Positions 46,087 to 50,752 of a stretch of DNA of 64,000 nucleotides are shown in pieces (position 1 is the first letter of the stretch; each line of letters starts with the position of its first letter). The stretch covers positions 1-64,000 of the forward strand of contig JACKLW010000014.1 of NCBI GenBank assembly GCA_024235715.1, read 5' to 3'. The translations under genes and the position numbers were made by a program. Under the pieces are notes generated by a model. The model searched no databases and was not told the origin of the DNA. It saw only the letters and a program-made list of their open reading frames with translations. Source of the DNA: Accumulibacter sp. Lineage in GTDB: Bacteria > Pseudomonadota > Gammaproteobacteria > Burkholderiales > Rhodocyclaceae.

Positions 46087-47172
46087 ATGAGTCACTACGA
46101 AGAACGTCTCGAAAGAGACCTGTCCCTGATCAAACAACAAGCGACCCTGCTCGCCAAGCGTGTCGACGATGCTCTCAGTGCCGCGGTACGTGCCCTGCTG
46201 AGCGGTGACGACAAACTCGCCTACGCCACAGTCCTCGGCGACCAGCGCATCAACGCCGAAAACCGCAAGCTCGATCGCATGTGTCACGCCTTCATCGGCG
46301 TACACCTGCCGAGCGCCGGCCATCTGCGCCTGATCACGGCCATGATTCACGCCAACATCGCCCTGGAACGTGTCGGTGACTACGCGGTGACCATCGCCCG
46401 CGAATCGGTGCACCTCGCCAAACGTCCGGACGCGCTGATCAAGCGCGAGGTTGAACTGCTCGCCGGCGAATCGCGGCAAATGTTCAAGCAGGCGGTATGC
46501 GGCTTCATCGACGGCAATGCCGAGAAGGCACGGGCGACGATGATCATGGCCGATCAGGTCGAGCGGACCTTCGATGTGGTCTTTGCCGATCTGGTCAGTG
46601 AGGGAGAGAACTTCAGCGTCGAGGATCTCTTCGCCTATCTGGGCGTGTTCAACGCGCTCGAACGGGTCTCGGACCAGGCCAAGAACATCTGCGAGGAAAC
46701 CGTGTTTGCGGTCACCGGGCAGACCAAGGCGACAAAGGTCTTCCGGATCCTCTTCCTCGACGAGGACAACACCCTGCTCGGGCCGATCGCCGAGATGGTG
46801 GCGCGCAAGAATTTTTCCGGAGGTGGCGAGTTCAGCAGCCTGGGCCGGACGGCTGGCGCGATGGCGCCGGAGGTGGTCAGCCGGTTGCAGGAGTTGGGCA
46901 TCGATCTGGCGCGCCACCAGCCGCGAGCGATGAACCTGAGCCTGCAGGATCTCGCTGATTTCCACGTCATCGTCAGTCTGCAGGGGCCGGTCAAGTCCTA
47001 CGTCGACAACGTGCCGTTTCACACCGCAGCACTCGAATGGGATGTTGGTGGTGCCGTCACGGCGGAAGTTCCCGACGAGCAGCGGCGCGAACGCCACGAG
47101 GCCCTGATTCGCGAGATTGCCGTGCAGGTGAGCAATCTGATGAGCACCCTTCGGGGCGAGGAGGCCGACTGA
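46087..47172 (+). CDS. phoU: PhoU fused to a degenerate phosphatase-like domain
   Basis: A 361-residue protein. Residues about 1-215 are PhoU, the regulator linking the Pst importer to PhoR/PhoB, with its two three-helix repeats and metal-binding ERVGDYA and ERVSDQAKNI motifs. From about 218 to 345 it aligns with low-molecular-weight phosphatase/arsenate reductase: ILFLDEDNTLLGPIAE matches the VLFVCTGNSCRSPMAE loop position by position, but the nucleophile Cys is Asp225 and the loop Arg is Leu231, so catalysis is not expected. Standard PhoU is about 240 residues. It may be a ligand-sensing domain, for example for phosphate. pstC starts 2 bp after its stop. Confidence 0.88.
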   Translation: MSHYEERLERDLSLIKQQATLLAKRVDDALSAAVRALLSGDDKLAYATVLGDQRINAENRKLDRMCHAFIGVHLPSAGHLRLITAMIHANIALERVGDYAVTIARESVHLAKRPDALIKREVELLAGESRQMFKQAVCGFIDGNAEKARATMIMADQVERTFDVVFADLVSEGENFSVEDLFAYLGVFNALERVSDQAKNICEETVFAVTGQTKATKVFRILFLDEDNTLLGPIAEMVARKNFSGGGEFSSLGRTAGAMAPEVVSRLQELGIDLARHQPRAMNLSLQDLADFHVIVSLQGPVKSYVDNVPFHTAALEWDVGGAVTAEVPDEQRRERHEALIREIAVQVSNLMSTLRGEEAD

Positions 47173-47173
47173 C

Positions 47174-48121
47174 ATGGCCAACAGCAACACTGCGCCTGGC
47201 GTGTCCGTGACCGCCGGCGGGGCGGCTGCCTTCGACCGTCGCAATTTCGACTGGTATGTCGACAAGGCCGTTCAGGCGATTGTCTTCCTGTGCGGCATCT
47301 CGGCGATCATCTTCGTCCTTGGGATCTTCGTGTTCGTCACCAAGGAAGGTGTGGGCTTCATCTTCGAGCACATGAACGTCCGGGAGTTCTTTCTCACCCC
47401 GTACTGGTTTCCGAGCGATGCCGACGACCCCGAATTTGGCATTCTGGCACTGATGGCGGGTACGGCCAGCGTCACCGGACTGGCAATGCTGGTGGCGATT
47501 CCGTTTTCACTCGGGGCGGCGATCTACATCGCCGAGTTCGCCAGCGGCAAGACCCGCGAAACGCTGAAAGTGCTGGTCGAACTGCTGGCAGCGATCCCTT
47601 CGGTGGTCTGGGGATTCATCGGCCTGGTGATCATGAACCCCCTGATCATCAAGTGGTTCGACGTGCCGGTCGGTCTCTGTGTGCTCAATGCCGGCATCAT
47701 TCTTGGTTTGATGGCAGCGCCGATCATGACCTCGATCGCCGAGGATGCGCTCAAGGCAGTTCCCGATCGCTACCGCGAAGCGGCGGAGGCGATGGGCGCG
47801 ACACGCTGGCAGGTGACCTACAAGGTGGTGCTGCCGGCCGCCAAGAATGGTCTGCTCGGTGGCGTGCTGCTCGGCGTGGGCCGCGGCTTCGGCGAGACCA
47901 TGGCGGTGTTGATGGCTACCGGTCACGCAGTCAACATCCCGGACAGCATTTTCGACTCGGTGCGGGCACTGACCGCGACCATCGCCGCCGAGTTGGGTGA
48001 AACCGTCGTCGGCGGCGAGCATTATCAGGCCCTGTTCACCATCGGCATCCTGCTCTTCCTGGTGACCTTTATCGTCAATCTCAGCGCCGACCTGATCGTG
48101 CGCGGCATTCGCAAGGGCTAG
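47174..48121 (+). CDS. pstC: Phosphate ABC permease PstC
   Basis: A 315-residue inner-membrane permease with six helices. The EAA loop that couples to the ATPases reads YREAAEAMGATRWQVTYKVVLPAAKNGLLGG. FIFEHMNVREFFLTPYWFPSDADDPEFGIL is the periplasmic part typical of PstC. It lies 2 bp after phoU and 3 bp before pstA. Confidence 0.95.
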   Translation: MANSNTAPGVSVTAGGAAAFDRRNFDWYVDKAVQAIVFLCGISAIIFVLGIFVFVTKEGVGFIFEHMNVREFFLTPYWFPSDADDPEFGILALMAGTASVTGLAMLVAIPFSLGAAIYIAEFASGKTRETLKVLVELLAAIPSVVWGFIGLVIMNPLIIKWFDVPVGLCVLNAGIILGLMAAPIMTSIAEDALKAVPDRYREAAEAMGATRWQVTYKVVLPAAKNGLLGGVLLGVGRGFGETMAVLMATGHAVNIPDSIFDSVRALTATIAAELGETVVGGEHYQALFTIGILLFLVTFIVNLSADLIVRGIRKG

Positions 48122-48124
48122 AAA

Positions 48125-49015
48125 ATGACATCGGCTAATGCAGAAATGTTCCAGGCCAGTGGCCTGAACAAACGCAACGAGCGCGTCCAGAATTCTTACC
48201 GGATACTCTTCGGTTTGATGACCCTGATGTTGATCACGCCCGTGCTCTTGATTCTCGGGACCCTGGTGGCCAAGGGCGGTGGCGTGATTTCGTGGGAGTT
48301 CCTGTTCACAGCGCCGACCGACGGCATGCGCACCGGCGGCGTCCTGCCGGCCCTGCTGGGCACCATCTGGCTGGTCATGGTGGCGCTGCTGCTGTCGGTA
48401 CCGATCGGCGTCTGCGCGGCGATCTACCTCAGCGAGTATGCGGGCGACAACTGGTTCACGCGCACCATCAACCTGGCGATCATCAACCTGGCCGGCGTGC
48501 CATCGATCGTGCATGCGCTGTTCGGCCTCGGTGCTTTCGTCATCTTCTTTGGCTTCGGGACCAGCATCCTGGCGGCGAGTCTGACGCTGGCGGTGATGAC
48601 CATGCCGGTGGTCATCGTTGCCACCCGTGAGTCGCTGCAGGCGGTGCCACAGGCGTTTCGCGAGGCCTGCTGGAACATGGGTGCGACGCGCTGGCAGACG
48701 ATCCGTCGGGTGGTGCTGCCGAACGCGATCACCGGCATTCTCACCGGTGTGATCCTCGAGGTTTCGCGCACTGCCGGCGAGACGGCGCCAATCATGTTCA
48801 CCGGTGCGGTGTTCTTCACGCCATTCCTGCCGGAAAGCGTTCTTGATCAGACCATGGCCTTGTCCCTGCACCTGTTCGTCGCCGCGACGCAGGTGCCCGG
48901 GATTGCCGAGGAAGTTCCGTTCGGTGTCGCCCTGGTGCTGATCGCGCTGGTGCTGACCATGAACAGCGCTTCGATCGCGTTTCGCATGTGGCTCAGGGGG
49001 AAGAAGAAATGGTAA
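48125..49015 (+). CDS. pstA: Phosphate ABC permease PstA
   Basis: A 296-residue permease with six helices and a coupling loop FREACWNMGATRWQTIRRVVLPNAITGILTG. It would pair with PstC to form the membrane channel. Two different coupling loops are normal in Pst; what is unusual is that two different ATPases are encoded downstream. Overlaps pstB1 by 7 bp. Confidence 0.95.
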   Translation: MTSANAEMFQASGLNKRNERVQNSYRILFGLMTLMLITPVLLILGTLVAKGGGVISWEFLFTAPTDGMRTGGVLPALLGTIWLVMVALLLSVPIGVCAAIYLSEYAGDNWFTRTINLAIINLAGVPSIVHALFGLGAFVIFFGFGTSILAASLTLAVMTMPVVIVATRESLQAVPQAFREACWNMGATRWQTIRRVVLPNAITGILTGVILEVSRTAGETAPIMFTGAVFFTPFLPESVLDQTMALSLHLFVAATQVPGIAEEVPFGVALVLIALVLTMNSASIAFRMWLRGKKKW

Positions 49016-49830
49016 GCCAGAGCGCTCTCGAGCGACCCCCGCCCGGCAGTCAGGCCAATGGCGAATCGGGCGGGTCGCCGATCAAGCTGGCGGTCAAGGA
49101 TCTGACCATCAGTTACGGCAAGACGGTGGCCCTGAAGGGGGTCAGCCTGGAGATTCGCGAGCATGAGATTTTCGGTATCATCGGCCCGGCCAATGCCGGC
49201 AAGACCTCGTTCCTCAAGGCTGTCAACCGCATGGATCTGTTCAGTAGCGGAATGCGCGTGGATGGCGAGATGCGTTTCAACGGTCTCGATACCCGCCAGC
49301 TGAACAACCTCTATGCACTGCGCAGCCGTATCGGCGTCGTCTTCCCGCTGCCGGTCGGGCTGCCGATGACGGTTTATGACAATGTCGCGCTCTCGCCGCG
49401 ATGGCGGGGGATCACCAACAAGGCCGAACTGGACGTCATCGTGCAACGCTGCCTGACCCGCGCCGCCCTCTGGGACGAAGTCAAGGATCGTCTGAACGCC
49501 CTTGGCAGCCTGCTCTCCGGCGGCCAGCAGCAGCGCCTGACGATTGCCAGGGCGCTGTCACAGGAACCGGACCTGCTGATGCTGGACGAGTTTTCGATTG
49601 CCGTCGACCCGGTCACCACCATGCGCATCGAGGATGTGCTCAAGGAACTGCGCAAGGAAGTGACCATCATCCTGGTCACCAACCTGGTGCAGCAGGCGCG
49701 GCGACTCGCCGACCGTACCGCCTTCTTCCTGAACAGCGAATGCGTCGAAATCGGGATCACGGAGGAACTGTTCACCGGTGAGGTGAAGGATCAGCGTACG
49801 CGCGACTACGTCGAGGGACGATTCGGCTGA
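49009..49830 (+). CDS. PstB1: PstB-like ATPase with degenerate Q-loop and switch His
   Basis: A 273-residue PstB-like ATPase. Walker A is GPANAGKTS (59-67; usual GPSGCGKST). The Q-loop Gln is Pro113 (VVFPLP; usual MVFQKP). The signature LSGGQQQR (from 169) is canonical. Walker B LLMLDEF keeps Asp193 and Glu194, but the D-loop reads IAVD and the switch His is Asn225 (VTNLVQQA; usual VTHNMQQA). It should bind nucleotide but is unlikely to hydrolyse efficiently at its own site, while it could supply LSGGQ to a partner. ATG 49009 overlaps the end of pstA. A canonical-core PstB follows 115 bp downstream. Confidence 0.9.
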   Translation: MVSQSALERPPPGSQANGESGGSPIKLAVKDLTISYGKTVALKGVSLEIREHEIFGIIGPANAGKTSFLKAVNRMDLFSSGMRVDGEMRFNGLDTRQLNNLYALRSRIGVVFPLPVGLPMTVYDNVALSPRWRGITNKAELDVIVQRCLTRAALWDEVKDRLNALGSLLSGGQQQRLTIARALSQEPDLLMLDEFSIAVDPVTTMRIEDVLKELRKEVTIILVTNLVQQARRLADRTAFFLNSECVEIGITEELFTGEVKDQRTRDYVEGRFG

Positions 49831-49945
49831 GTCTCTGGATGCCGGACCGGGGCTCTGCTGCCGTCTAAAGCGGCGCGGCCGGTTTTGCGCCAGGCTGCCC
49901 CGCTTGCCACTGTATTGACTGAATGCCAACGAAGGACACCATCAG

Positions 49946-50752
49946 ATGACCGCCGCCCAAGCCGCAGCTCTGCTGCAGCCCGCTCCCCAATACGCGATCG
50001 ACACCAAGAAACTCAACCTCTGGTACGGGACCTTTCAGGCCCTGTACGACGTGGACCTGCGCATCCGCCAAGGCATGATCACCTCGATGATCGGTCCTTC
50101 GGGATGTGGCAAGAGTACTTACCTGCGCAGCGTCAACCGCATCAACGAGCGTCTCGGCTACGTGCGCATCGAGGGCCGCATTGACGTCATGGGCGAGAAC
50201 ATCTACGACCCGCGCGTCGAGTTGATCCAGGTGCGCAAGCAGGTCGGAATGGTATTCCAGCGCCCCAATCCCTTGCCCATTTCGATACGCGACAATATCC
50301 TCTTCAGTCATCGCCTGCACGCCAAGGGCGGTGGTGACGTACACCAGGGCACGCCGGACGAGATCGTCGAGGAGTCCCTGCGCACGGTGCTGTTGTGGGA
50401 CAAGGTCAAGGACCGGCTGAAACGCAAGGCGACCGAACTGTCGCTGGAAGAGCAGCAGAAGCTTTGCATCGCCCGTCTGCTGCCGGTGAAGCCGAAGCTG
50501 CTGCTGATGGACGAGCCCTGTTCCGCGCTCGACCCGAAGGGCACCGAGGCAGTTGAGGAACTGCTGTGGGAACTGCGTGGGCAATACACGATCCTCATCG
50601 TTACGCACAACATGGCGCAGGCCCGACGCGCCAGCGAGGAATGCATCTTCATGCTGATGGGCAAGGTCGTCGAACACGCGCCAACCGAGGAAATGTTCGT
50701 GACGCCGACCCATAGGGAGACTGCCGACTACATCGAGGGCCGTTACGGCTGA
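49946..50752 (+). CDS. pstB: PstB2: PstB ATPase with degenerate ABC signature
   Basis: A 268-residue phosphate-import ATPase. Walker A GPSGCGKST (50-58), Q-loop Gln105 in VFQRPNPLP, Walker B LLLMDEPCSALD and switch His221 (VTHNMAQA) are all canonical. The ABC signature, normally LSGGQQQR, is LSLEEQQK (165-172), losing both glycines. Alone, a homodimer would have two broken signatures; paired with PstB1 it would have one complete site. ATG 49946 follows AAGGACACCATCAG. It ends the pst operon. Confidence 0.93.
   Translation: MTAAQAAALLQPAPQYAIDTKKLNLWYGTFQALYDVDLRIRQGMITSMIGPSGCGKSTYLRSVNRINERLGYVRIEGRIDVMGENIYDPRVELIQVRKQVGMVFQRPNPLPISIRDNILFSHRLHAKGGGDVHQGTPDEIVEESLRTVLLWDKVKDRLKRKATELSLEEQQKLCIARLLPVKPKLLLMDEPCSALDPKGTEAVEELLWELRGQYTILIVTHNMAQARRASEECIFMLMGKVVEHAPTEEMFVTPTHRETADYIEGRYG

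Follow-up and report, generated by a model that had tools for sequence, protein, structure and literature searches.

Why does a predicted phosphate-import operon encode two PstB ATPases side by side, each altered in the motifs that the other keeps, and would the two proteins act as a single unit? The question is raised by a 64,000-nucleotide stretch of an Accumulibacter sp. contig (JACKLW010000014.1, positions 1 to 64,000 of the forward strand, assembly GCA_024235715.1), hereafter the window, in which the genes pstB1 and pstB2 follow those of the permease proteins PstC and PstA. Few bacterial importers have been studied as thoroughly as the Pst system, which is taken to work with a PstB homodimer, and degenerate ATP sites have mostly been studied in exporters. 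A first reading of the letters (the original prediction) had proposed an asymmetric PstB1–PstB2 heterodimer. Comparison with related loci makes it highly likely, in our judgement, that the two proteins form an obligate heterodimer under PstC–PstA, with one catalytic composite site and a second, weak one.

Complementary motifs in PstB1 and PstB2

PstB1 carries the Walker A motif GPANAGKTS, the Walker B motif LLMLDEF and the D-loop SIAVDP, and its signature LSGGQQQR (residues 169–176) is intact, while Pro113 stands at the Q-loop position (VFPLP) and Asn225 replaces the switch histidine (VTNLVQQA). PstB2 is altered in the complementary place: Walker A (GPSGCGKST), the Q-loop with Gln105 (VFQRPNPLP), Walker B and D-loop (LLLMDEP and CSALDP) and the switch with His221 (VTHNMAQA) are retained, and the signature has become LSLEEQQK (residues 165–172). 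The substitutions and retained motifs that the original prediction named are confirmed on the translated genes. A frame or start error is ruled out, as neither reading frame is interrupted and the alignment with relatives extends over the full length.

In an ATP-binding cassette (ABC) dimer, one subunit contributes Walker A and B and the A-, Q- and H-loops to an ATP site, and the other contributes the signature (PMC7756269). Because each site is shared between subunits in this way, either homodimer would hold two broken sites, and only a PstB1–PstB2 heterodimer would hold a consensus one. On this comparison a heterodimer with one consensus site is very probable, and hydrolysis at that site alone is probable.

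Both proteins belong to the PstB family in the wide sense. They score below the cut-off of the PstB equivalog TIGR00972 (343.2 bits; PstB1 270.1, PstB2 317.2), which is nevertheless the top NCBIfam match of each, and they fall with canonical PstB in trees. An AlphaFold2 monomer model of PstB1 from a 30-row alignment (mean predicted local distance difference test score, pLDDT, 85.8) finds its best structural matches in E. coli PstB of the PstSCAB cryo-electron microscopy entries 9k3s and 9k3x (E 2.5e-28), with 40–41% identity to chain C and a template-modelling (TM) score of 0.92–0.94 by target length; as modelled, its fold is that of a working nucleotide-binding domain (NBD).

To limit circularity, profiles that omit the motif columns were made for PstB1, PstB2 and canonical PstB, and all PstB-like proteins of 283 loci (482 records, 458 full-length) were classed by them. 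By the stricter count this gave 348 distinct full-length proteins, i.e., 124 of PstB1 type, 121 of PstB2 type and 103 canonical; a looser count (126, 126 and 104) leaves the pattern unchanged. All 124 PstB1-type proteins have the switch Asn and LSGGQ, with Pro (108) or Ala (16) at the Q-loop position. Among the 121 PstB2-type proteins the Q-loop Gln is invariant, the switch residue is His in 120 and Tyr in one, and the two signature glycines are lost throughout (LSLEE 61, LSLEQ 21, LQLEQ 19, LPLDQ 8, others 12). The canonical class is consensus at Q-loop, signature and switch in 100 of 103 cases, the three exceptions being diverged extra ATPases (L030, L031/L110 and L117). The Walker A Lys and the Walker B Asp-Glu are retained in all three classes, and in the looser count 110 of 126 PstB1 proteins have the D-loop changed to SIA[VI]DP and, likewise in 110 of 126, Phe directly after the Walker B Glu.

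The complementary pattern is thus complete in 120 of 121 distinct full-length pairs, which supports at sequence level the predicted combination of one fully consensus site with one broken on both halves. Chance or misread motifs are ruled out, since every distinct full-length protein of each type fits, apart from one PstB2 with an additional change. The original prediction had likened the arrangement to TAP, BmrCD and CFTR. That likeness stands insofar as the defects are split over two NBDs, in the same 120 pairs; it fails at the catalytic Glu, whose loss is described as a hallmark of degenerate sites (PMC7544095) and which PstB1 keeps.

We note that two loci encode a third, more degenerate PstB-like ATPase after the pair (L030:7480-8277 and L031:6402-7286), with LSIGQ and LTTSM signatures and a switch Asn, and that in the former a weak PhoU-like match lies 3' of it.

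Linkage, ancestry and spread of the pair

When genome contigs were scanned with PstB1 and the best 80 loci kept, 27 (L012–L037, L071) were of the pair type and 53 carried consensus PstB. The 27 span Pseudomonadota, Nitrospirales, Planctomycetota, Rhodothermota, Acidobacteriota, Verrucomicrobiota, Myxococcota, Candidatus Poribacteria and Bdellovibrionota, as placed by record titles and NCBI ranks; all are titled as metagenome-assembled genomes (MAGs), one giving just 'bacterium', and a single placement may be wrong. Retention of the substitutions across these nine named phyla or candidate phyla, together with the invariant Walker A Lys and catalytic Glu, bears out the earlier view that the matched pattern is not random decay.

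The two genes travel together. PstB2 directly follows PstB1 for 123 of the 124 distinct PstB1 proteins, the remaining one (L032) lying at a contig end, and a full-length PstB1 directly precedes 116 of the 121 distinct PstB2 proteins. The exceptions comprise three PstB2 behind a PstB1 truncated by the contig end (L096, L159 and L214), one at a contig end with no room for PstB1 (L109), and one unlinked PstB2 (L297). The genome of the last (G1314, L297/L305; 96% complete, 6% contamination) carries PstB1 on a different contig, in a pst locus where no PstB2 lies within the 1,500 bases that follow, so that this genome is not a case of PstB2 without PstB1. Neither protein was found alone with these substitutions among the 124 PstB1 and 121 PstB2; the co-occurrence of the two substitution sets in related genomes, on which the original prediction had turned, accordingly holds, broken only by contig ends and by one genome that has both genes unlinked.

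As separate observations, the unlinked pstB2 of L297 is remote from pst genes and comes after an open frame that by eye resembles a Ser/Thr protein kinase, and second or broken pstB2 copies occur within the genus (G310:C1:4280128-4280923, G319:C69:38132-38545 and L144/L162 of G323), one with an internal TAG, one partial and one split into two pieces.

PstB1 and PstB2 types form two separate groups in a tree of 124 rows, in which the diverged extra ATPase L031_x sits on a very long branch inside the PstB1 side. A tree without the motif columns, which provides an independent check on the profile classing, again gives one PstB1 group that includes a deeper branch (support 99/94) and one PstB2 group (100/95); this tree of 100 rows, from which four long rows and all those of ten loci were omitted, is unrooted, and its bootstrap stopped just short of settling. 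All trees are unrooted and composed of PstB-like rows, with no other ABC family included. The deeper branch (16 pairs) has Ala at the PstB1 Q-loop with the switch Asn, and LPLDQ, LPMDQ, LSLEQ or LSPEQ as the PstB2 signature. That each type is one group, with other residues in the deeper branch, indicates that the asymmetry is old and has outlasted changes in the residues themselves, and gives no support to separate origins of the two branches. Distances between PstB1 proteins correlate with those between their PstB2 partners (r 0.93 over 120 pairs, a value reached in 0 of 500 permutations; 0.89 when the close branch is taken by itself).

The permease carries a matching change. Trp183 in the coupling helix of PstA is present in 28 of 28 rows from pair loci and in 0 of 45 canonical rows, two of the latter being the same protein, whereas PstC of pair loci has a canonical-looking coupling helix. 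Of six deeper-branch PstA proteins read, four have EVS at the coupling helix, and the pattern used missed the other two. The PstA change fits an altered partner on one side of the permease.

Within the genus, PstB1 occurs in 19 and PstB2 in 20 of 28 genomes, own genome counted, the extra PstB2 genome (G303) having a PstB1 tail at the contig end (L159). Outside the genus, no PstB1 was found in the 33 genomes sampled from its family and order (E<=1e-85, a threshold that would miss the deeper branch), and the class sample yields it in 5 of 274 genomes, own counted (E<=1e-80). The phylum samples, in each of which up to 30 loci were read, give lower bounds: at least 16 of 288 genomes in the phylum of a Verrucomicrobia MAG (6 close branch, 10 deeper branch), at least 24 of 294 in that of a Planctomycetota MAG (21 close, 3 deeper), at least 30 of 247 in that of an Acidobacteriota MAG (27 close, 3 deeper) and, own genome counted, at least 23 of 299 in the own phylum, where the next seven loci read had consensus PstB. 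This patchy spread suggests transfer of the pair between phyla.

Proposed use of the two ATP sites

From the complementary substitutions, their joint occurrence at one locus, the way each type groups in the trees and the matching change in PstA, we infer dimerisation of PstB1 with PstB2, a weak second site and a one-ATP cycle. The catalytic site would combine Walker A and B, Q-loop and switch His of PstB2 with the LSGGQ of PstB1. The second site, made of the PstB1 Walker motifs without Q-loop Gln and switch His and of the LxLE-type signature of PstB2, would bind ATP and hydrolyse it slowly or not at all, and the import cycle would probably be powered by one productive hydrolysis.

Several points weigh against this reading. 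The case for a heterodimer is drawn from sequence comparison; the rows used to train the profiles are among the rows classed, those of the deeper branch were named by motif, and a few rows were classed by a margin of just 5–10 bits. Many sources are MAGs, and locus finding by similarity may miss diverged or unpaired forms. Any two genes that are linked and inherited together would be expected to show such a correlation of partner distances. One PstB2 (L269/L306, G981), the sole one seen with Tyr for the switch His, would have a weakened consensus site.

A further point is the other PstB of the genome, since the original prediction had allowed that a canonical PstB elsewhere might serve this permease. 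The genome does hold a canonical pstCAB (PstB at C9:193769-194521, L234), which could share subunits with the pair, but its PstB adjoins its own pstC and pstA. Moreover, no PstB besides the pair was found in 12 of the 27 relatives' genomes (E<=1e-38; completeness is unstated, and the pair is cut by contig ends in two of the 27); where relatives have other PstB-like matches, their E-values are no worse than 1.8e-62, the exceptions being a diverged ATPase (2.1e-53) and the extra degenerate ones. Nor was one found in 4 of the 20 genomes of the genus that have the pair (E<=1e-50; completeness 100, 97, 90 and 83%); the remaining ones, own genome included, have another PstB match. A canonical PstB as the hidden or real partner of the pair is unlikely as a rule, in view of the permease genes beside the own genome's copy and of the 12 relatives in which none was found.

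Retention of catalytic Glu and Walker A Lys in 126 of 126 PstB1 proteins of the looser count leaves slow turnover at the PstB1 site conceivable. A heterodimer in which both sites hydrolyse ATP, the altered one slowly, with the asymmetry tuning order or rate, would accommodate these residues, and DppD/DppF of E. coli, in which single Glu mutants each kept similar ATPase activity (PMC12136057), offers a parallel. Against it, a single site has lost Gln, His and the two glycines of the signature in trans, both in 120 of 121 pairs and in the one left over, whose peculiarity concerns the other site; we consider this variant unlikely, and part of its probability lies within the reading we prefer.

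Signalling persists in single PstB mutants of E. coli that fail to transport, with low alkaline phosphatase (AP) activity for Q160K and high activity for E179Q (PMC5775613), so that an asymmetric site could matter for signalling too. Carried further, these mutants, the unusual PhoU of the pair operon and the canonical pstCAB of the own genome would agree with a phosphate sensor that is not a pump, the pair holding a signalling state for PhoU/PhoR and uptake passing through canonical Pst or Pit. We regard this as quite improbable: relatives and genus members in which no other PstB was found would be left without that Pst route (Pit was outside the search), and the consensus ATP site kept in 120 of 121 pairs would be needless for a pure sensor.

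Two homodimers swapped on one permease by condition, as might be supposed for the tandem pstB genes of Firmicutes, are very improbable here: the tandem PstB proteins of E. faecalis do differ in role (PMC12096839), but both have Walker A, Walker B, LSGGQ and H-loop, whereas each homodimer of the present pair would be doubly broken. Functionless decay of a redundant duplicate pair, which the broken, partial or second pstB2 copies of a few genus members (G310, G319 and G323) might suggest, is scarcely credible given the same substitutions and the same invariant Lys and Glu in loci of nine named phyla or candidate phyla.

The obligate heterodimer with one catalytic and one weak site is the reading that we retain.

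The operon, its PhoU and transporters with unequal sites

On the + strand of the window, pstS, phoU, pstC, pstA, pstB1 and pstB2 follow one another in an operon-like arrangement, in which the pstA stop is overlapped by the pstB1 start (Table 1). PstS, PstC and PstA each exceed their own NCBIfam cut-off, and with the ATPase genes in the same putative operon the gene complement of a Pst importer is present. The gene set recurs in relatives as far as their loci reach, pstS being present wherever the available stretch extends far enough. Among named organisms, Candidatus Accumulibacter appositus is closest to the locus (PstB1 87%), and the listed completeness of the window's genome is 90.54%.

Table 1. 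Genes and motif positions of the pst locus, in window coordinates
Feature	Position	Strand	Profile evidence
pstS, periplasmic phosphate-binding protein, 291 aa	45122..45997	+	TIGR02136, 241.2 bits (cut-off 206.6)
phoU with C-terminal low-molecular-weight (LMW) phosphatase/ArsC-like domain, 361 aa	46087..47172	+	Pfam PhoU, 7.7e-24
phoU, LMW-phosphatase-like part; catalytic Cys and Arg absent (CX5R lost)	46738..47172	+	
pstC, permease	47174..48121	+	TIGR02138, 274.9 bits (cut-off 196.45)
pstA, permease; coupling helix REACWNMGATRW with pair-specific Trp183	48125..49015	+	TIGR00974, 257.2 bits (cut-off 193.45)
pstB1, ATPase; signature intact, Q-loop and switch altered, 273 aa	49009..49830	+	
PstB1 Pro113, replacing the Q-loop Gln	49345..49347	+	
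PstB1 LSGGQQQR signature, predicted to supply the consensus site in trans	49513..49536	+	
PstB1 Asn225, replacing the switch His	49681..49683	+	
pstB2, ATPase; Walker motifs, Q-loop and switch intact, signature altered, 268 aa	49946..50752	+	
PstB2 Q-loop Gln105, retained	50258..50260	+	
PstB2 LSLEEQQK, replacing LSGGQQQR	50438..50461	+	
PstB2 switch His221, retained	50606..50608	+	

A phoU whose product scores at least 125 bits to the window PhoU and has an extra C-terminal stretch is part of the operon in 19 of the 27 close-branch loci (L012–L022, L026, L027, L029, L033, L034, L036, L037 and L071) as well as in the window. As for the other eight, no PhoU was found in the available stretch of L023–L025, L028, L032 and L035, and L030 and L031 have a weak match. 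Seven of the C-terminal stretches were run against Pfam LMWPc, which matches that of L027 at 1.9e-16, those of L034, L018, L026 and L029 at 2.7e-06 to 1.2e-05, and, weakly, that of L012 at 0.16 and the window fragment at 0.012, below the curated cut-off. An alignment of 20 rows shows the catalytic Cys in just one (L027), with 19 lacking it, and the Arg of CX5R in three (L019, L026 and L027). Deeper-branch loci have a plain PhoU of ~224–251 residues behind pstB2 (8 of 8 long loci), and the domain fusion may be later than the split of the ATPases. A limited literature search returned no published description of such a PhoU–LMW-phosphatase fusion.

Gene neighbourhood weakly suggests that this PhoU, with its mostly dead LMW-phosphatase-like domain, is probably a regulator of the pair transporter. 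A wider picture, possible if on balance doubtful, is that of an ancient importer-sensor class in which the degenerate site serves as a nucleotide clamp (one ATP per phosphate) read by a dedicated PhoU whose dead domain has turned into a phosphate or nucleotide sensor, the operon having spread between phyla and replaced ordinary Pst in many lineages.

Among known systems, PstSCAB of E. coli (PDB 9k3s, 9k3x and 9k3y) shares with the window the operon parts, the fold and the PstCA permease, and differs in having one PstB sequence with consensus motifs, of which each entry contains two chains. Two adjacent pstB genes also lie in the pst operons of Firmicutes (pstB1/pstB2 of E. faecalis, PstBA/PstBB of B. 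subtilis), and a structure-prediction study of B. subtilis modelled PstBA with PstBB in one complex (PMC11466899). The E. faecalis proteins differ from the pair in that both have the four consensus motifs sought and are 60% identical (PMC12096839), and the tandem pstB of L065, L066 and L083 are likewise consensus and lie outside both pair groups in the tree. By these comparisons the pair is separate from the Firmicutes tandem duplication, whose proteins are consensus in the cases seen.

Degenerate-site exporters and a channel (TAP, BmrCD and the single-chain Pdr5 and CFTR) have, like the pair, one consensus and one degenerate site with defects spread over two NBDs. The nearest signature seen is that of Pdr5 in the available account, where LNVEQ with a changed H-loop comes close to the LSLEQ and Asn of the pair. 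The pair differs from these systems in belonging to an importer, in keeping the catalytic Glu and in having lost the Q-loop Gln as well. Different ATPase halves on one importer are also found in DppD/DppF, OppD/OppF, fused RbsA and NupO. Both DppD and DppF, unlike what we propose for the pair, can hydrolyse ATP (PMC12136057); RbsA and NupO have one degenerate site, as does the pair, but are type II importers with fused NBDs and a second Walker A without Lys (PMC11466899).

The available text of an Accumulibacter genome paper gives pst as PstSCAB, with no second PstB mentioned there, and no description of a degenerate or asymmetric PstB pair was found among the matches listed in the literature searched, as far as its text was available, preprints and most subscription papers lying outside its scope. 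In sum, the comparison suggests a widespread, apparently undescribed type of phosphate pump across several bacterial phyla. If this is true, the degenerate-site question gains a simple importer with separate subunits, in which one could measure directly how much ATP each phosphate costs and what the silent site does.

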